A stretch of DNA of 64,000 nt from NCBI GenBank assembly GCA_947495795.1, contig CANMAI010000004.1, positions 186,001-250,000 on the forward strand, read 5' to 3'. Origin of the DNA: an uncultured Paracoccaceae bacterium. GTDB lineage: Bacteria > Pseudomonadota > Alphaproteobacteria > Rhodobacterales > Rhodobacteraceae. The notes below the pieces were generated by a model. The model saw nothing but the letters and a program-made list of their open reading frames with translations, did not search any database and was not told the origin of the DNA. Numbering within the stretch: the stretch's first letter is position 1; each line of letters starts with the position of its first letter. This document shows positions 16,475-23,789 of this stretch, one piece after another. The position numbers and the translations under genes were made by a program.

Positions 16475-18073
16475 TTATGCATCTCCGGCGGCCCTTTTCC
16501 TTCGCGGCTGTCGCAGCTCGCGTGGCTTGCGACTCCCGTGTTTCTCGAACACGGCCTCTGCTTCCGCGCGGGCGTCACCGGTTCGGCGCAGCGCATAAAT
16601 GCGCTTTTTCGCCTCGTGTGCCGTCTGTTTATGATCCACGATAGGACTGGGGTAATCAGCCGATGGCTGATCCGTCGTCCAGGGCTCCTGCAATGCCTTA
16701 CCATCGAAGGCCGACAGCTCGTGCACCCAGCGGCGTGTAAAGTCTCCCGTGGGGTCCTGATCATACCCCTGCTTGACCGGAGAGTAGACCCGCACAGCGT
16801 TTATCCCGGTCTCACCCGCTTGCATCTGGCTTTGCGGCCAATGGATGCCCGGTTCGTAATCAGTGAAAAATCGCGCCAGCACTTCACCTGATTGCTGCCA
16901 AGGCAGCCAAAGATTGTAGGACGCAAACGACATCAGCATCGCGCGCATCCTAAAATTGATCCAACCCGTCGCCTTGAGATACCGCATGCAGGCGTCGACA
17001 AAGGGATACCCGGTTTGACCCGTTGCGAAGGCGGTCAGCGTAGCCTCATCACTCGGGGTGGGGCGTAGGCCTTCATACATGCGCGCCATTGGGAGCCATT
17101 CGATCTCCGGCTCTGCTTCGAGCTTTTGCATGAAGTGACAATGCCAGTGCAGCCGCCCGATAAAGGATCTCATTGCGCTTGGCCATGTGCCTCGCTCCGC
17201 TTTCGGAAGGGCCGCGATCTCCTCCTGCCGTGCCAGTGTGGCCTGATAGATCTCGCGCATCGATAAGCTACCGGCGACAAGGTGCGCCGACAGTCTGGAA
17301 CAGGCGGATTCCCCTGTGACGGGGCTCGACATGGCTTTCTGATAGGGCTCACCCCGGTCGTGAAGAAATGACCGAACCGTCTGAAGAGCAGCCGCTCGCC
17401 CAGATGGTTGAAGGTCAACGATGCCGTCGGGCTCAAGTTGAAGATCGGAGGACGTCGGAACGCGATCCGCCCCGTGATCGATCCATGAAATCCGCGATGG
17501 CACGGGCAAGAGTGGCTCGGACATCATTTTGTCCCAGCGTTTTGCCCATTGGTTCCGATTCAGGGAACTACCACGCCAGACCCCATATTGCTGGAACTCC
17601 TCGAAAGTGATATTTTGGTCGCTGCACCAGTCTCGCACGGCCTTATCGCGCTCAAAGGTCCAGGCATTCCCTGTTTCCATGTGAGCGACGAGACGAAACT
17701 TGCCATGAGTTGCGAGAATATCATCCAGCGCGTCTTTAACTGAACCCACCATGACGCAGAGCTTTCCGCCTCTGTCAGAAACGTCTTTTTTAAGGCTCTC
17801 AACCGCGCTGCGGAGAAACTCCCATTGACGGTAGCTGGTATCGGGAAGAGCCCAATATTCAGGTTCCGCGACATACAGAGGAAGAACCCGGCCGTAGTTT
17901 GCAGCTGCTGTCAGTGCGGCATGATCGTTGAGCCGAAGATCACGTTTGAACCAGATGACAGTCAGATTTACGGCGCCATCGGCACCACTAAGGTTTTTGG
18001 CTGTCACTTCATCGGCTTTCATCAGGTGCTGCGAGTATCGAACGTTCCACCCGTGGAAGTGTTCCATAAGCAC
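16475..18073 (-). CDS. Cryptochrome/DNA photolyase family flavoprotein
   Basis: A 532-residue protein with the N-terminal alpha/beta photolyase domain (LTVIWFKRDLRLNDHAALTA) and the FAD-binding helical domain. Motifs include TWPSAMRSFIGRLHWHCHFM, FVDACMRYLKATGWINFRMR, and WPQSQMQAGETGINAVRVYS. FAD-binding photolyases repair pyrimidine dimers with blue light; cryptochromes signal. The two cannot be separated by eye here. The open frame begins at a GTG (18073) with an ATG at 18067; 35 residues precede the core and no good ribosome site is visible, so the start is uncertain. It is the only intact gene in a decayed region and may have been acquired. Confidence 0.88.
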   Translation of the reverse strand: MLMEHFHGWNVRYSQHLMKADEVTAKNLSGADGAVNLTVIWFKRDLRLNDHAALTAAANYGRVLPLYVAEPEYWALPDTSYRQWEFLRSAVESLKKDVSDRGGKLCVMVGSVKDALDDILATHGKFRLVAHMETGNAWTFERDKAVRDWCSDQNITFEEFQQYGVWRGSSLNRNQWAKRWDKMMSEPLLPVPSRISWIDHGADRVPTSSDLQLEPDGIVDLQPSGRAAALQTVRSFLHDRGEPYQKAMSSPVTGESACSRLSAHLVAGSLSMREIYQATLARQEEIAALPKAERGTWPSAMRSFIGRLHWHCHFMQKLEAEPEIEWLPMARMYEGLRPTPSDEATLTAFATGQTGYPFVDACMRYLKATGWINFRMRAMLMSFASYNLWLPWQQSGEVLARFFTDYEPGIHWPQSQMQAGETGINAVRVYSPVKQGYDQDPTGDFTRRWVHELSAFDGKALQEPWTTDQPSADYPSPIVDHKQTAHEAKKRIYALRRTGDARAEAEAVFEKHGSRKPRELRQPRRKRAAGDA

Positions 18074-18255: not shown

Positions 18256-18405
18256 ATGAAGCACTTGAATCTACCGTCCGTCAGGCAAATCCAGACGAAC
18301 TCTGAAACCGTCTATGCATTCGAAGTTACCGGAGATGTATCGAAGGATGAGTTCATCCTATCGACGGCCGCCTCGATTAGGCTGGCATCAAATGCAAAGC
18401 CGTGA
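18256..18405 (+). pseudogene. SpoIIAA-like (STAS) gene start, interrupted by transposase sequence
   Basis: A clear AAAGGAG ribosome site precedes the ATG at 18256. The first residues (SVRQIQTNSETVYAFEVTGD, then VSKDEFI) resemble the start of SpoIIAA-like proteins (PF11964). At about position 18362 the sequence switches to the 3' part of an antisense transposase, and the frame stops at 18405 after 49 codons. It is most likely an ordinary small gene cut by an IS element. The family assignment rests on a short stretch. Confidence 0.4.
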
Positions 18406-18785
18406 CCACCAAGGGGACCCTCCGAAATGCAGCATGCAACGGCGGTCTCGAACACAGAGCGCAGCAGATCACTTTCCCGGAATTTACCATCGCGGTATCT
18501 GGAAAAGGTGCTGTGATCAGGCACTTTCTGGTCCAAGCTCAGGCGGTAAAACCAACGATACGCAAGGTTCAGATATCCCTCTTCACACAGGCGCCGCTCC
18601 GACCGGATATCCAAAACATATCCGATCACCAACATCCGCAGGATTAGTTCGGGATCAATTGAGGGCCGCCCAAGATGGCTATTATACTGCTTCGGCTGCT
18701 TACGGTTGGTCGCCACGTCCAAAAAGCGGTCAATCTCGCGCAGATGTTATCCACCGGGACATGCACCTCCATGTCAAAGTCGCAA
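18312..18785 (-). pseudogene. Frameshifted, truncated IS1182/IS5-type transposase
   Basis: The N-terminal half of a transposase: EVHVPVDNI, then (shifted by one base near 18745) LREIDRFLDVATNRKQ, and GRPSIDPELILRMLVIGYVL, LCEEGYLNLAYRWFYRLSLD, PDHSTFSRYRDGKFRESD. These are hallmarks of the DUF772/IS1182-type N-terminus. After FAFDASLIEA it changes to other DNA at about 18362. The missing DDE part and the frameshift show that it is dead. I saw no terminal inverted repeats. Confidence 0.8.
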
Positions 18786-18981
18786 AACAACCACGCCAAA
18801 GCTCACTGAACACCCATCATCGTCAAGTCTTCCCAAATTTTACAATACCGGGTGAAGCAAACGACTTGCCTCAAAGCAACAGAGACTTCTTCAACAAAAT
18901 AAGCTCGGAGCAGACGTTGCCCTAAAGCGCAGGATGATCCAGAACCAAACCATCTGTTGCCATCCCGGAGAGGCCCAAGAC

Positions 18982-19563
18982 ATGACAATCGCCATCGCCG
19001 CCATCCTAGGCTACCTCCTCGGCTCCGTCCCCTTCGGCCTCGTCATCGCAAAAGCCCTCGGTCTTGGCGATATCCGCAAGATCGGATCGGGCAATATCGG
19101 CACCACCAACGTGCTGCGCACCGGCAACAAGCCAGCCGCCCTCGCCACGCTTATTCTCGACTCCGGCAAAGGCGCCGCCGCCCTTCTGCTGGCCCGCTGG
19201 CTTCTGGGAGAGCCGGCAGCGCTGGCCGCTGGCCTCGGCGCCATCATCGGCCACCTCTACCCCGTCTGGCTCAATTTCAAAGGCGGCAAGGGTGTGGCCA
19301 CATGGCTCGGCCTCCTCCTCGCTCTCAACTTCATCGCAGGAGCCATCGCCTGCGCCACATGGCTCGCCATCGCCGCCCTCACCCGCATCTCGTCGGCCTC
19401 CGGCATGGCCGCCACAGCTTCCAGCCTCATCACCCTCCCCCTCCTCGGCCGCGCAGATGCACTGGCCATCGCCATCCCCATCACAGCCGTCATCTTCTGG
19501 AAACACCGCGCCAATATCACACGCCTCCGCGCAGGCACCGAACCAAAAATCGGCAAATCCTGA
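18982..19563 (+). CDS. plsY: Acyl-phosphate glycerol-3-phosphate acyltransferase PlsY
   Basis: Integral membrane enzyme that acylates glycerol-3-phosphate in the first step of phospholipid synthesis. Motifs are GYLLGSVPFGLVIAK, GSGNIGTTNVLRT and HLYPVWLNFKGGKGVAT, which correspond to the three conserved PlsY loops. The ATG at 18982 with GGAGAGG upstream is preferred to the in-frame 18934 start. Length (193) is normal. It marks the return to the ordinary chromosomal codon style. Confidence 0.96.
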   Translation: MTIAIAAILGYLLGSVPFGLVIAKALGLGDIRKIGSGNIGTTNVLRTGNKPAALATLILDSGKGAAALLLARWLLGEPAALAAGLGAIIGHLYPVWLNFKGGKGVATWLGLLLALNFIAGAIACATWLAIAALTRISSASGMAATASSLITLPLLGRADALAIAIPITAVIFWKHRANITRLRAGTEPKIGKS

Positions 19564-19669: not shown

Positions 19670-20182
19670 ATGGAAATCCTGCGCCACTGTCAAAGGTGTC
19701 TAATAGGCTGGCGAACACTGCGCGGCCGTGCAACGCGCGGCGAGTTCTGGGTGTTTCACGCCATGCTGGTCGTGGTTCTCTTCCTCGTGGTCCTCGGCTA
19801 TTTCTTCACGCTCTCGGCCATGGGCGCGGATGTCGACTCTCCGATGCGCAAACCGATCACCATCACCTATATTGTATTGTCAGCCGGCCTGATGATCTTC
19901 CTCTTCATCGCCTCCGTCTCGGTCACGGTCCGCCGCCTCCATGATCGCAACCGCAGCGGCAAATGGTACCTTTTCTATGCCGTTCTCAGCGTGGTGCAGG
20001 CAGTATATTCGCAATTCGTGCCCACCAACGATACCGCCATCATGATCGGCGCGGGGCTCGCGGGCCTTGTGCTTCTCTCCACCCTGATCGGCTTCATCCT
20101 GATGTGCCTCAAGGGCACGGATGGCGTGAACAATTACGGCGCAGATCCCCAACGTCCGATAGATCTCAACGTCTTCGCCTGA
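19670..20182 (+). CDS. DUF805 family membrane protein
   Basis: The start at 19670 (MEILRHCQRCLIGWRTLRGR) is chosen since this is the usual DUF805 beginning; an in-frame upstream extension overlaps plsY in another frame. It has four membrane helices and the family motifs RATRGEFW near the N-terminus and VTVRRLHDRNRSGKW in the middle. It ends with GVNNYGADPQ, also typical. The function is unknown, it is in the inner membrane. Confidence 0.9.
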   Translation: MEILRHCQRCLIGWRTLRGRATRGEFWVFHAMLVVVLFLVVLGYFFTLSAMGADVDSPMRKPITITYIVLSAGLMIFLFIASVSVTVRRLHDRNRSGKWYLFYAVLSVVQAVYSQFVPTNDTAIMIGAGLAGLVLLSTLIGFILMCLKGTDGVNNYGADPQRPIDLNVFA

Positions 20183-20477
20183 GGCGATTTGCCCGCAAGC
20201 CACTATCCGCGGAGAGCGCTCCAAACCGAGCTGCCTGAGAGACGCTGCCGTTTGGCCCCGATACTCTCCTTCATCCAGCACTTCGAGCGGAAAAGACATA
20301 TGGTTTCGGCCAGAATCGTCTCCTCCACGTCCTCATCCCTAAAAGCACAGAGGGGGCCAACCGCGTCAGCCCGGATCCTCTGCAGCCACAAGATGACAAT
20401 TGGAAGACTTGTTCCGCTGGCACATCCATCCAACCCGGTGCGAAAGGTTTCCCTTGACGTTTCCGTTGCTTCATTTA
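20183..20477. other. Intergenic stretch without a recognised gene
   Basis: This stretch lies between the DUF805 gene and the GbsR-type regulator's operator. A minus-strand frame of 76 codons (20203-20433) exists but matches no family I know and lacks a good start. No RNA gene is apparent. Confidence 0.4.
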
Positions 20478-20495
20478 TTTCTGTTGTAACAGAAA
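20478..20495. promoter_or_regulatory. Perfect palindrome, probable regulator operator
   Basis: TTTCTGTTGTAACAGAAA has 8-base arms around GT, 15 bases before the ATG of the GbsR/MarR-type gene. Such dyads in front of a MarR-type gene usually serve autoregulation. The same protein could also control the membrane-protein genes downstream. Confidence 0.75.
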
Positions 20496-20510
20496 CAACA
20501 GGAAATTCCG

Positions 20511-21038
20511 ATGCACCTCACACCTGCCATGGAAAACTTCATCCTCCACTGGGGAGAAATGGGGGCAAAATGGGGGGTCAATCGCTCCGTCGCCCAGATC
20601 CACGCCCTTCTCCACCTCTCGCCAGAGCCACTCCCGGCCGATGTGATATCGGAACTTCTGGGTCTCGCCCGTTCCAATGTCTCCACCGGCCTCAAGGAAC
20701 TGCAAGGCTGGAAGCTGGTGCAGATAGAGCGCCGCCTGGGCGACCGCCGCGATCACTTCACCTCCGTCCGCGATATGTTCGATCTCGTCCATGTCGTTGT
20801 CGCAGGCCGGCGTGAACGCGAATACGTGCCCACGCTGGAGGCTGTTGCCACCACACTGGAAGACGCCAAAACCGATGGCACACCGGAAGCCTTCCGCCAG
20901 CGCATGAAAGAAACCTACGAGACGATGGCCCTCTTCGACCGATGGTACAGAGACGTCCAGCGCCTCCCCCGCCCCGTGCAGAAAAGCCTCCTCAAGCTCG
21001 GTGCAGGTATCACCAAGATCCTGCCCGGCATGAAGTAA
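20511..21038 (+). CDS. GbsR/MarR-type transcriptional regulator
   Basis: A 175-residue winged-helix protein of the GbsR group (MENFILHWGEMGAKWGVNRS, then ARSNVSTGLKELQGWKLVQI, and a beta-wing with RRDHFTS). The C-terminal half is helical and ends with PRPVQKSLLKLGAGITKILP. GbsR-type proteins often respond to osmolytes or repress membrane or choline/betaine genes. Here the gene is followed at 23 bases by three related small membrane-protein genes, which are its likely targets. Confidence 0.88.
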   Translation: MHLTPAMENFILHWGEMGAKWGVNRSVAQIHALLHLSPEPLPADVISELLGLARSNVSTGLKELQGWKLVQIERRLGDRRDHFTSVRDMFDLVHVVVAGRREREYVPTLEAVATTLEDAKTDGTPEAFRQRMKETYETMALFDRWYRDVQRLPRPVQKSLLKLGAGITKILPGMK

Positions 21039-21061
21039 AAATTTGCCCGGGAGTTTCTCTC

Positions 21062-21532
21062 ATGACAGAAAAAACTGGCAAAACCGCCGCACCCACAGCC
21101 AAATTGGCACAGCCTACAGCGCTCCGCCTCCTTGCCTGCGGCTTAAGGCTGGGCGTACGGCGCACCACACTCTTCGTGTTGCTGCTCGGCCTCCTGGGGG
21201 CTCCCTTCTCCTCGGGCCTCACCCTCTTAGCAGCATGCGGCTTTACCCTATACCAGATTGCCATCGGAACGCCGGTCTTCTTCCCCTACGGTGCCATCGC
21301 TCTCCGTCTCACTCCGGAAAAGATACAGCGTACGCCCCGCACCTTCGCCGCAATCGCCGCGATGTCGATGGCCATAACACTCCTCGCACTCACCGCCCTG
21401 TCTCTCAGCGCTTCAGGCTCCGTAAGCCCGAAAATACTCTGGGGCCTCGGCCTCCCCGCCCTGCTCATAGCTCCGGTCTGGGGCTACGCTCTCGGTCAGG
21501 TCTTCCGAGATCAGGGCATGGCAAACGGCTGA
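21062..21532 (+). CDS. Small multi-pass membrane protein, tandem family copy 1
   Basis: A 156-residue protein; the ATG at 21062 lies downstream of a GGGAG site, and the longer frame from 20942 overlaps the regulator. It is hydrophobic with about four membrane helices. It shares motifs with the next two products: IGTPVFFPYGAIAL about residue 80, and a terminal IAPVWGYALGQVF. I do not recognise a named family. Function unknown. Confidence 0.7.
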   Translation: MTEKTGKTAAPTAKLAQPTALRLLACGLRLGVRRTTLFVLLLGLLGAPFSSGLTLLAACGFTLYQIAIGTPVFFPYGAIALRLTPEKIQRTPRTFAAIAAMSMAITLLALTALSLSASGSVSPKILWGLGLPALLIAPVWGYALGQVFRDQGMANG

Positions 21533-21556
21533 CTCGATTTAGAAGGAAACTCTCTC

Positions 21557-22060
21557 ATGACACGCGAAACTGAGCGCACTTTCGGAGCGGTCGATGCAGC
21601 GGCGACAAACTCCAGCCCGTTTCACCTCCTCGCCGGGGGGCTCAAACTCGGCGCACTCCGCACAAGCAGTTTCTGGCTCATCCTCGGCCTCATCGGCACG
21701 CCTTTTACAGCGGGCATTACGCTGATCATTGCGATCTGCATCGTCGTGGTCCAACTCGCGATTGGTGCGCCCATCTACTTTTTCCTCGGAAGGGCCGCCT
21801 TACACCTTGAAGTGCCGCGCACCCCACTCGCCATGGCCTGCATCGCTGCAGTCTCCGTCGCCATCCCCCTGCTGGCCGCCGCAGCAATCCTTCTTCCCTA
21901 CGGCCCCTCTGGCACACCGTTCACCGACGCGCTCGTGGTTGGCGGCCCAGTCGCCCTCCTCACCGCGCCGATCTGGGGGCATGCTCTCGGGCAGGTCTGC
22001 ACCACCCAGAAGAAGGCCGCAGCGCAAAATACGCCCCGTCCAACATCAAACCCGGTCTGA
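21557..22060 (+). CDS. Small multi-pass membrane protein, tandem family copy 2
   Basis: A 167-residue protein clearly related to the product of 21062-21532: LLAGGLKLGALRTSSFWLIL and LIGTPFTAGITLI match the first copy closely, then IGAPIYFFLGRAAL and TAPIWGHALGQV. About four membrane helices, no signal peptide. It follows the first copy at 24 bases behind GAAGGAAAC. It looks like a gene duplication within the operon. Function unknown. Confidence 0.72.
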   Translation: MTRETERTFGAVDAAATNSSPFHLLAGGLKLGALRTSSFWLILGLIGTPFTAGITLIIAICIVVVQLAIGAPIYFFLGRAALHLEVPRTPLAMACIAAVSVAIPLLAAAAILLPYGPSGTPFTDALVVGGPVALLTAPIWGHALGQVCTTQKKAAAQNTPRPTSNPV

Positions 22061-22085
22061 CCTTTTTTGAGAGGAAATTTCAGTC

Positions 22086-22556
22086 ATGACAGAAACAAGC
22101 GAACCAACTGCTCCTGCCAGATATCCTATCGACACGTCAGCCTTCCTCTTCGCTCTGATCCTTGGCCCATTCTGGGGCACCCTGGTGGCAATTGCGATTG
22201 CTCTCATACCGATAGGTCTGCTGTCGCTAACCACCGGATCGGAAATTGGCGTCTACGCCCTGATACCCGTTTTCGGGATCGCATTTGGCGCCCCCCTCTA
22301 TCTCACGCTGGGCACGATTGCCTTCGTGTTGGCGGCTCGCGCCCGGGCAAACTCCGCATGGATCTATGCACTAGCCGCATTTCTGGCGAACCTCTTCTCA
22401 CCTCTTGTCTTGTACCTCTTCGCAAACGCAAGCCGAGTACCAGATCCGGCAAGCATATCCCTCTTCTACCTCGGCTTCGGCTCGGCGTGCGCCCCGATCT
22501 ACGGCTGGGGTTTCGGCAGCATCTATATCAACTTCACCAAAGGAGATGCCCGATGA
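22086..22556 (+). CDS. Small multi-pass membrane protein, tandem family copy 3 (diverged)
   Basis: A 156-residue hydrophobic protein with the same plan as the two upstream products. The motifs FGAPLYLTLGTIAF and CAPIYGWGFGSIY align with the G-[AT]-P and AP-x-[WY]-G motifs of copies 1 and 2. The remaining sequence is more diverged. Its stop overlaps the next start by four bases (ATGA). Confidence 0.7.
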   Translation: MTETSEPTAPARYPIDTSAFLFALILGPFWGTLVAIAIALIPIGLLSLTTGSEIGVYALIPVFGIAFGAPLYLTLGTIAFVLAARARANSAWIYALAAFLANLFSPLVLYLFANASRVPDPASISLFYLGFGSACAPIYGWGFGSIYINFTKGDAR

Positions 22557-22945
22557 CACTCTTTGAAATCCTCTACTTCAGCCTCGTATTCACCGGCCTT
22601 GGCCTTCTCTGCCTGATCGTCTGGAAAGTGGGGGAAGCCATGGCCGATTGCCCCGCAACAGGCCGCGCTGCCCGCGCAGGTGCGCTCACCATCATGACAG
22701 GTTTCGCAGCCCTCGGCTTTGGCGTGATCTCCCTCATCGCCGCCATCTTCCCGCTGCTGCAAGAGGGCAACCTCAGCCTGCTTTACACAGCCCTCGGCCC
22801 CGCCGCCATCGCCCTCGGCATCGGCTTCACCTTCGCCGCCGGCCAATTGCGCGCTGTCGTCCGCGACGCCGCAACCCGTGCAGCGCATGTCACACGGCAA
22901 ACCGCTGCCCCAGGCACCACAGGGACGGATCAGGCAACCGCCTGA
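22553..22945 (+). CDS. Small membrane protein, last gene of the regulator-membrane cassette
   Basis: A 130-residue protein with three hydrophobic segments (LYFSLVFTGLGLLCLIVW, LTIMTGFAALGFGVISLIAA, ALGPAAIALGIGFTFAAG) and a soluble tail with many Thr and Ala. It overlaps the previous gene by ATGA, so they are coupled. I do not recognise a family. It is followed by a terminator. Confidence 0.68.
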   Translation: MTLFEILYFSLVFTGLGLLCLIVWKVGEAMADCPATGRAARAGALTIMTGFAALGFGVISLIAAIFPLLQEGNLSLLYTALGPAAIALGIGFTFAAGQLRAVVRDAATRAAHVTRQTAAPGTTGTDQATA

Positions 22946-22962
22946 CCGCCCCAGAAAGAAAC

Positions 22963-22986
22963 AAAGGCTCCCGAAGGGGCCTTTTC
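22963..22986 (+). terminator. Rho-independent terminator
   Basis: AAAGGCTCC, loop CGAA, GGGGCCTTTT forms a stem (one T-G pair) with a short T run, 18 bases after the stop at 22945. It ends the GbsR-type operon. Confidence 0.7.
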
Positions 22987-23084: not shown

Positions 23085-23789
23085 ATGAGTACAGAACCAA
23101 AGATAGATACATCCGGCCGATCCAGGCCAGCGGCCTCCGTGCAGGAGAGCCTGACTGTAGAGACACTCGAAAACATAGCACCGCTCGATGATCAATTCGG
23201 TGCAGCCAAGCCCAAAACAGTCCCGGAGGTACTCTTCGAACCCCTCTTCGGACAGCCCGATCAACCAGAGGCGCAAGGCACCATACTCCACACCTACGCC
23301 ATCCTCGATGCCGCCAAGGTCATCAATCTCGTCGAAACGCTGGAGATGTCCGGCCTCGATCATCGCTGCCTCTTCAAGGGCAAGGCTGAAGACGATCTGA
23401 AGAATGTCGCTCCATGGCTTGTAAAACTGAAAGAGGGAGAGCGCTTTACCCGCACGCTCTTCACCAAGGATGCGTCAGATGCCCCCTGGCATCTCTGGGA
23501 TAAGGAACCCGGCATCTACATCCGCTCCCCTGCTTCGCTCGATGCCCTCTGGCAGCATTTCCGCAAATTCACGCGCGTTCAGGCTAAAACCGGCAAATGG
23601 TTCTTTCTCCGCTTCTACGATCCTTCGTTTCTGCCCGCCTATCTCGGCGCGATGGACCCCAAGAAACAAAGGCTCTTCATGGGGCCCGCAGAAGCCATCA
23701 TTGCCATCACGGCCAACCGGGGCAGCCCCGGCTACAATTCCGTCTCGCTGTCAGTCCCACCGCCCGGAGAAGGCGCAGCAAACGGATAA
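23085..23789 (+). CDS. DUF4123 protein (type VI secretion adaptor-like), orphan
   Basis: A 234-residue protein. From about residue 70 it has the DUF4123 layout: HTYAILDAAKVINLVETLEM, then ACLKG-like DHRCLFKGK, a segment ending PWLVKLKEGERFTRTLF, and KTGKWFFLRFYDPSFLPAYL. DUF4123 proteins are chaperones that load effectors onto VgrG in type VI secretion. No VgrG, PAAR or toxin gene lies beside it in this window. The 80-residue N-terminus is disordered-looking. It may serve a system elsewhere, or be a remnant. Confidence 0.75.
   Translation: MSTEPKIDTSGRSRPAASVQESLTVETLENIAPLDDQFGAAKPKTVPEVLFEPLFGQPDQPEAQGTILHTYAILDAAKVINLVETLEMSGLDHRCLFKGKAEDDLKNVAPWLVKLKEGERFTRTLFTKDASDAPWHLWDKEPGIYIRSPASLDALWQHFRKFTRVQAKTGKWFFLRFYDPSFLPAYLGAMDPKKQRLFMGPAEAIIAITANRGSPGYNSVSLSVPPPGEGAANG

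Follow-up and report, generated by a model that had tools for sequence, protein, structure and literature searches.

The window examined here, a stretch of 64,000 nucleotides from contig CANMAI010000004.1 of an uncultured Paracoccaceae bacterium (family Rhodobacteraceae), contains a compact cassette in which a regulator gene (A) is followed by four genes for membrane proteins (B, C, D and E) and then by a hairpin with a short T run (Table 1). Three operator-like sites (O1, O2 and O3) were located in the window. Comparison with related loci suggests a cassette that is quite probably autorepressed through two operators, that belongs to the GbsR/MarR superfamily as a sister of cydE and cioR, and whose membrane or redox cargo can be swapped. 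The cassette is of more interest for its operators than for its three tandem genes.

Table 1. Features of the cassette and, in the lower rows, of its flanks, in window coordinates.
Feature	Position	Strand	Description
-35-like TTGACG	20454-20459	+	Starts 23 bases 5′ of O1
Operator 1 (O1), ATTTCTGTTGTAACAGAAAC	20477-20496		15/16 consensus positions; overlaps expected -10 region
A	20511-21038	+	GbsR/MarR-type regulator, 175 aa; placed in sister clade of CydE
Operator 2 (O2), GTTTCTCTCATGACAGAAAA	21053-21072		13/16; core 21054-21071; contains start codon of B
B	21062-21532	+	D-family membrane protein, 156 aa; N-terminus MTE
C	21557-22060	+	D-family membrane protein, 167 aa; N-terminus MTR; start without recognisable operator (8/14)
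Operator 3 (O3), ATTTCAGTCATGACAGAAAC	22077-22096		Core 22078-22095; contains start codon of D
D	22086-22556	+	Membrane protein, 156 aa; four helices in model; nearest of B, C and D to family profile
E	22553-22945	+	Membrane protein, 130 aa; three helices in model; nearly invariant Cys-Pro
Terminator-like hairpin, short T run	22963-22984	+	-13 kcal/mol, z -2.7; absent from consensus terminator scan
Photolyase gene	16475-18073	-	
DUF772 open reading frame	18312-18722	-	Transposase domain
plsY	18934-19563		
DUF805 gene	19670-20182	+	Membrane protein
DUF4123 gene	23085-23789	+	Between cassette and gshA

B, C and D can be aligned with each other (identity to B is 46% for C and 25% for D), and they share the motifs G-[AT]-P (GTP, GAP and GAP, respectively) and AP-[VI]-[WY]-G (APVWG, APIWG and APIYG), as had been noted in a first-pass annotation made from the sequence. 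The coupling of the fourth membrane gene through ATGA, where the start of E overlaps the end of D, was likewise confirmed, and the description of the whole as a self-contained cassette is supported. Of the terminator described there, the hairpin is present, with the energy and z-score given in Table 1, but it is unlisted by the consensus scan. The three tandem genes are found in the window but are not the rule, other loci carrying mostly one or two D-family genes. That annotation had missed the two further operator-like sites, which cover the B and D start codons.

The sequence upstream of A, TTTCTGTTGTAACAGAAA (20478-20495), had been called a perfect 18-base palindrome. It is present and conserved, but 16 of the 18 bases are palindromic, as two arms of eight bases around GT. 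Taken alone, this palindrome is no rarer than chance in the window, which has 10 inverted repeats with 8-base arms and a spacer of 0-4 bases, some of them overlapping, compared with 5-14 in 10 Markov controls; the chance of one falling within 80 bp 5′ of the regulator is 0.0135. It is counted as real because it is conserved across loci. A search for the regulator among 84,980 species gave 31 loci from Rhodobacteraceae and relatives (62-71% identity), 16 from other groups or phyla (36-56% identity) and one partial locus (L049), 48 in total. The consensus upstream of the regulator has 16 positions, ATTTCTGT-N4-ACAGAAAT, and at least 13 of these are matched at O1 in 46 of 48 loci (47 plus the window), including loci of other phyla, a score equalled by 0.03% of 7243 background stretches. 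The exceptions are L043 (12/16) and L048 (10/16). Operator counts exclude L001, which is the window's own locus, and L049, where the regulator match begins at residue 15; the sequence of L047 ends with the regulator. Lack of conservation of the palindrome, which the first-pass annotation had named among the results that would refute it, is thus not what was found.

In 23 of the 32 in-family loci, a hexamer that matches TTGACA in 5 or 6 bases starts 23-25 bases 5′ of O1, which puts the left arm of O1 at the expected -10 position. The hexamer of the window is unlisted by a strict sigma-70 scan. Within its own genome, O1 is the sole site that fits all 14 arm positions. Three sites have one mismatch in these 14 positions, two of them in the cassette (the cores of O2 and O3) and the third on contig C2. 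A wider regulon has no support, because sites with up to two mismatches number 12, compared with 11 for the reversed control.

The second operator was sought in the 220 bases after each regulator stop, using a matrix built from the first sites. O2 exceeds the 99% level of the background in 39 of 47 loci, and reaches at least 13/16 in 29 of the 32 loci of the family (L002-L032 and the window). The set for start overlap was limited to these because L064, L066 and L099 share their N-termini with L009, L014 and L019 and seem to repeat them. In 25 of the 29 loci, an open reading frame (ORF) of at least 80 codons starts inside O2, with the ATG at the centre or right edge of the site, compared with 27% of random 20-mers (binomial 6e-11, relatedness ignored). 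L013, L015, L031 and L032 have an O2 without such a start codon. L031 retains the regulator, O1 and an O2-like site, no searched-for cargo was found downstream, and it is a possible case of an emptied cassette. Two D genes that lack a regulator (in genomes G056 and G096) also lack an operator, their best sites matching 11 and 10 of 16 positions.

Where a protein starting with M-T-E begins within 90 bases of the regulator stop, the codons used are ACA GAA in 20 of 21 cases, with third positions left free (the exception is L008). The ACA share of threonine codons is 13% in the regulators and 7% in the glutamate-cysteine ligase gene (gshA) of the same loci. Second D-family copies outside the window begin with MTE in none of six cases (starts picked by script). 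The DCC1-like protein of L009 (Pfam 5.9e-25), which lies behind the same operator, begins with MTEIT. Given this codon use, and with MTE tied to position and not to protein family, this N-terminus is probably a DNA site, and MTEI would reflect the operator rather than a protein signal. This makes it a case in which a conserved protein N-terminus probably reflects a DNA site and not protein function. The presence of O3 on D, with none at C, fits duplication of a gene together with its operator, which would have been followed by decay at C.

O2 could instead act in RNA, as a hairpin that sets translation of the cargo with no regulator bound there, given that ATTTCTGT-CATG-ACAGAAAT can, judging from the site sequences, pair as an 8-bp stem whose loop holds AUG. 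However, the same sequence occurs at the promoter site O1, with its left arm at the expected -10, and the variants TTTCAG...CAGAAA, which break one pair of the stem, are found at both O1 and O2 (for example in L002, L006 and L007). TTTCAG is also a half-site of the footprint of CydE, in the available part of the CydE study (PMC6096048). Start codons lie within O2 in just two of 15 loci outside the family, and the two D genes lacking a regulator have no operator. A role as RNA hairpin is therefore unlikely, and O2 is better read as a binding site for A.

The assignment of A to the GbsR type agrees with its match to Pfam MarR_2 (PF12802; 32.9 bits, cut-off 27) and with its kinship to MJ223 (1ku9), the structural template for GbsR models, which is found by a 25-row profile of the regulator family at E 3.1e-21 (profile positions 8-153). 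In five genomes of the family (L071-L075), a relative with 37-43% identity lies directly before the gene for cytochrome bd subunit I (cydA), as it does in cydE and cioR operons, and these loci carry GTTTCAGAAATTTCTGAAAT or near variants, a CydE-type site. Matches to cydA among 127 loci are confined to these five and to eight loci of a class sample (289 genomes), the seed being confirmed by Pfam; there is none in loci L001-L049 and none in the cassette of the window. In a tree of the regulators, 47 including that of the window are split from the five cydA-linked rows at 99/99 with a midpoint root (L047, L049 and L076 were excluded, and L125 is the same place as L103). The cydA-linked rows are not one clade under this root, and the studied CydE and CioR proteins are outside the tree; with these rows as stand-ins, A is not inside the CydE clade. 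Nor is the window site TTTCTGTTGTAACAGAAA the operator of CydE, TTTCAGAAATTTCTGAAA, the framework being the same and the arms different.

The class sample, with 26 regulator loci besides the window's own, separates the two operator types along with the cargo. A CydE-type site of at least 15/18 is present in all eight cydA loci, and the type-1 operator reaches at least 14/16 in 10 of 10 loci with other recognised cargo (eight loci without a recognised neighbour are uncounted). O2 is found in eight of those 10 loci but in none of the eight cydA loci. By tree, operator type and cargo, the regulator clade is placed as the sister of CydE.

This position bears on the osmotic role that the first-pass annotation had thought plausible, and on a reading in which the locus would be an osmotic-stress cassette like those of GbsR and OpuAR and would sense choline or betaine. 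A belongs to the same superfamily, the MJ223 profile match is shared, and several relatives are marine genera by name. But A scores 47.2 bits against a cut-off of 218 with the CudC choline equivalog, no osmolyte gene is present among the identified neighbours, and tree and operator both stand beside CydE. According to the available part of a review (PMC6207618), the osmostress-associated members found among GbsR-type regulators are all Firmicutes, and the other groups lack the aromatic cage. With A sister to CydE and outside the choline or osmotic group, there is no indication of an osmotic role, which we consider very improbable.

Within the searches made, the membrane proteins of the window are undescribed, as had been stated. 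B, C and D have no Pfam or NCBIfam match above cut-off (DUF2673 gives 11.8/20 bits for D, and PRK12674.1-2 11.7/102 bits for C), and neither has E (Fig1, 11.5/25.3 bits). No Pfam hit is common to more than two of 36 D-family members (best E 0.01), and their five NCBIfam matches are to one member each (best 0.00091). The 23 E-family members give isolated matches, the best being T4SS_pilin in one (0.00041) and 0.036 in NCBIfam. The model of D has four helices, with a predicted local distance difference test score (pLDDT) of 88.4 and a predicted template modelling score (pTM) of 0.81 (L018 and L025 were excluded from its alignment, and L007 and L049 also from alignment A2). That of E has three helices (pLDDT 78.0, pTM 0.50). 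Foldseek gave no match at E ≤0.001 for either model, and VIA-align of D with 256 chains gave best Z values of 5.2 and 4.9, a range which that tool calls common arrangements. No homology was seen between E and D (hhalign E 0.13) or between D and DUF2269 (hhalign E 0.08). Proteins of the B/C type had no match in 30 other genomes, including two congeners (query C, E ≤0.001). Two unannotated families of membrane proteins, D and E, are thus linked to a single regulator. Small membrane proteins also occur beside the same regulator in L038 (3614-4009), L040 (5748-6146) and L105, which come from Verrucomicrobiota, Planctomycetota and an alphaproteobacterium. Those of L038/L040 may be distant kin of E, as a lead (hhalign E 0.021 and 0.0034; probability 2.3 and 9.5%).

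If the regulator and the membrane genes form a unit, then they might be expected to occur together across genomes, which the first-pass annotation had also named as a check. Among 100 genera of the family (all or up to 40 candidates scored per genome), a close regulator (63-100% identical) is present in eight genomes and the D family in 10. D is found in all eight genomes with a close regulator, compared with two of the remaining 92 (Fisher p 2e-10, with no correction for relatedness). Regulator and D are on one contig in all eight; D directly follows the regulator in seven and lies about 1 kb further on in G079, an arrangement that matches L009, with DCC1-like genes between regulator and D. 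Genomes with only more distant regulators have a D gene in none of nine cases. The E family was found in four of the 100 genera, always together with D, although one match is partial. D-family copy number is one or two in the first locus set, and three in one genome of the family sample (G063). In the class sample, the regulator is present in 27 of the 289 genomes and D in at least two, both of the window's family (up to 14 candidates were scored per genome, and weak relatives of D may have escaped notice). The regulator is thus widespread and D looks local.

Cargo in the 31 in-family loci is D, with or without E, in most cases. Other in-family cargo includes a desaturase (L007, L013, L018 and L023), DCC1-like proteins (L006 and L009) and a DUF4166 protein (L006), and elsewhere NAD-binding/DoxX, DUF2269, DCC1 or DUF4166 proteins are found. 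Such variation of cargo by genus would also be seen if A controlled itself only, with the membrane genes as chance neighbours at the plsY-gshA site and O2 serving autorepression alone, and L031, which keeps its O2-like site, is consistent with this. We regard chance neighbourhood as improbable given the co-occurrence (8/8 versus 2/92), the ATGA coupling and short intergenic gaps, and the placement of O2 on the cargo start, to which the window adds O3 at the start codon of D. Control of the cargo by A is the reading that we retain.

Comparison brings together conserved O1 and O2 sites, linkage, co-occurrence, kinship to CydE and the lack of an operator in the D genes without a regulator, all of which would suit the following scheme. 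A dimer of A would bind O1 over the -10 and start region of its own promoter, and would also bind O2 at the junction with the cargo, in Rhodobacteraceae usually on the cargo start codon. It would thereby shut off itself and the membrane proteins until released by an inducer, which may be of the respiratory or membrane-redox stress type. The second block, at O2, may be a roadblock or control of an internal promoter. In the window, duplication of the cargo gene along with its operator probably produced B, C (which lost the operator) and D (which retained it); E comes next.

Binding by A, repression, the block at O2 and release by an inducer are inferred from comparison, and several observations weigh against this scheme. 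O2 does not reach 13/16 in L018 (12), L022 (11) or L023 (10), and among 15 loci outside the family only two, both with TTG, have an ORF of at least 80 codons whose start is overlapped by O2; the start overlap is therefore a trait of the family and not general, the second site itself being wider in distribution. Spacing between O1 and O2 is 570-640 bp and shows no 10.5-bp helical phasing (R 0.06, n = 30), so that DNA looping in a fixed phase has no support. The perfect 20-base site (16/16) is found in two of the 100 family genomes, the window's own not among them, and two of the eight class-sample cydA loci, and also L073 of the family sample, reach 14/16 for the type-1 operator. Because close relatives were counted as separate cases, the p-values come out too low. 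The second site protected by CydE, in the available part of PMC6096048, is unlike the palindrome, and what D or E does biochemically is not suggested by any family, fold or motif. The weakest step is the function of the cargo: a role of D and E in helping the cytoplasmic membrane adapt to respiratory or redox stress is a tentative suggestion, and a rather doubtful one, made because sister cargo includes a fatty-acid desaturase, a DCC1-like thiol oxidoreductase, DoxX, DUF2269, an NAD-binding protein and DUF4166.

On balance, we lean towards a broader view, in which the window would hold one version of a GbsR-type plug-in cassette that occurs in several phyla and has two conserved operators, the second at the junction of regulator and cargo. 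In Rhodobacteraceae, the start codon would have moved into O2, ATG ACA GAA ATN would be kept as a DNA site whatever protein follows, the operator would have been copied by tandem duplication, and D and E would be new families of membrane proteins controlled in this way.

The cassette is flanked upstream by plsY and a DUF805 gene and downstream by a DUF4123 gene, followed by gshA on the other strand. The DUF805 gene lies between plsY and A, and DUF805 matches are also found near the cassette in L002, L030 and L049. A transposase-domain ORF (DUF772) adjoins plsY. The DUF4123 gene (Pfam 8.7e-29, with a Tla1-like NCBIfam match below cut-off) belongs to what we take to be a family of type VI secretion adaptors; DUF4123 had no matches in L002-L049. 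The photolyase gene was rejected as a member of the cassette, there being no photolyase matches in 97 loci, while gshA is a common flank.

A literature search found no description of this cassette of regulator and cargo, and no paper on pairings of DUF2269, DoxX and GbsR, on DUF393 with DoxX, or on DUF4166. For GbsR in Rhodobacteraceae, PMC7393951, in its available part, merely mentions the family. Compared with GbsR, OpcR and OpuAR of Bacillus and CudC of Staphylococcus, which are repressors, A shares the MarR superfamily and an MJ223-like profile, but it misses the CudC model, and its identified neighbours include no osmolyte cargo.

The sister cassettes of beta-, gamma- and alphaproteobacteria, Verrucomicrobiota and Planctomycetota have regulators that are 36-56% identical, O1 and often O2. 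They differ from the window in that their cargo is of other families (NAD-binding/DoxX, DUF2269, DCC1 and DUF4166), and in 13 of 15 cases their O2 is clear of ORF starts (ORFs of at least 80 codons).

The closest studied systems are cydEAB of Alishewanella and cioRAB of Chromobacterium violaceum, described here from the available parts of the two reports. CydE is a repressor of cytochrome bd with two footprinted sites, one of which is TATTTCAGAAATTTCTGAAAGTTCA, and it is released by sulfate (Xia et al., PMC6096048). The cioRAB operon is induced by cyanide, although its authors doubt that CioR senses cyanide directly (PMC11837568). In both, as proposed here for A, a GbsR-type autorepressor is encoded by the first gene of a membrane-protein operon. 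One footprinted CydE site shares the 18-base framework TTTC[AT]G-N6-C[AT]GAAA with the window site, and the cydA-linked relatives are sister rows in the tree. The operator arms, however, are ACAGAAA here and CTGAAA there, the cargo of the window is not cytochrome bd, and a second operator is present here but in none of the eight cydA loci. This comparison supplies the sister group of CydE with a defined operator, an arrangement of two sites and a cargo list, so that both the inducer and binding become directly testable.

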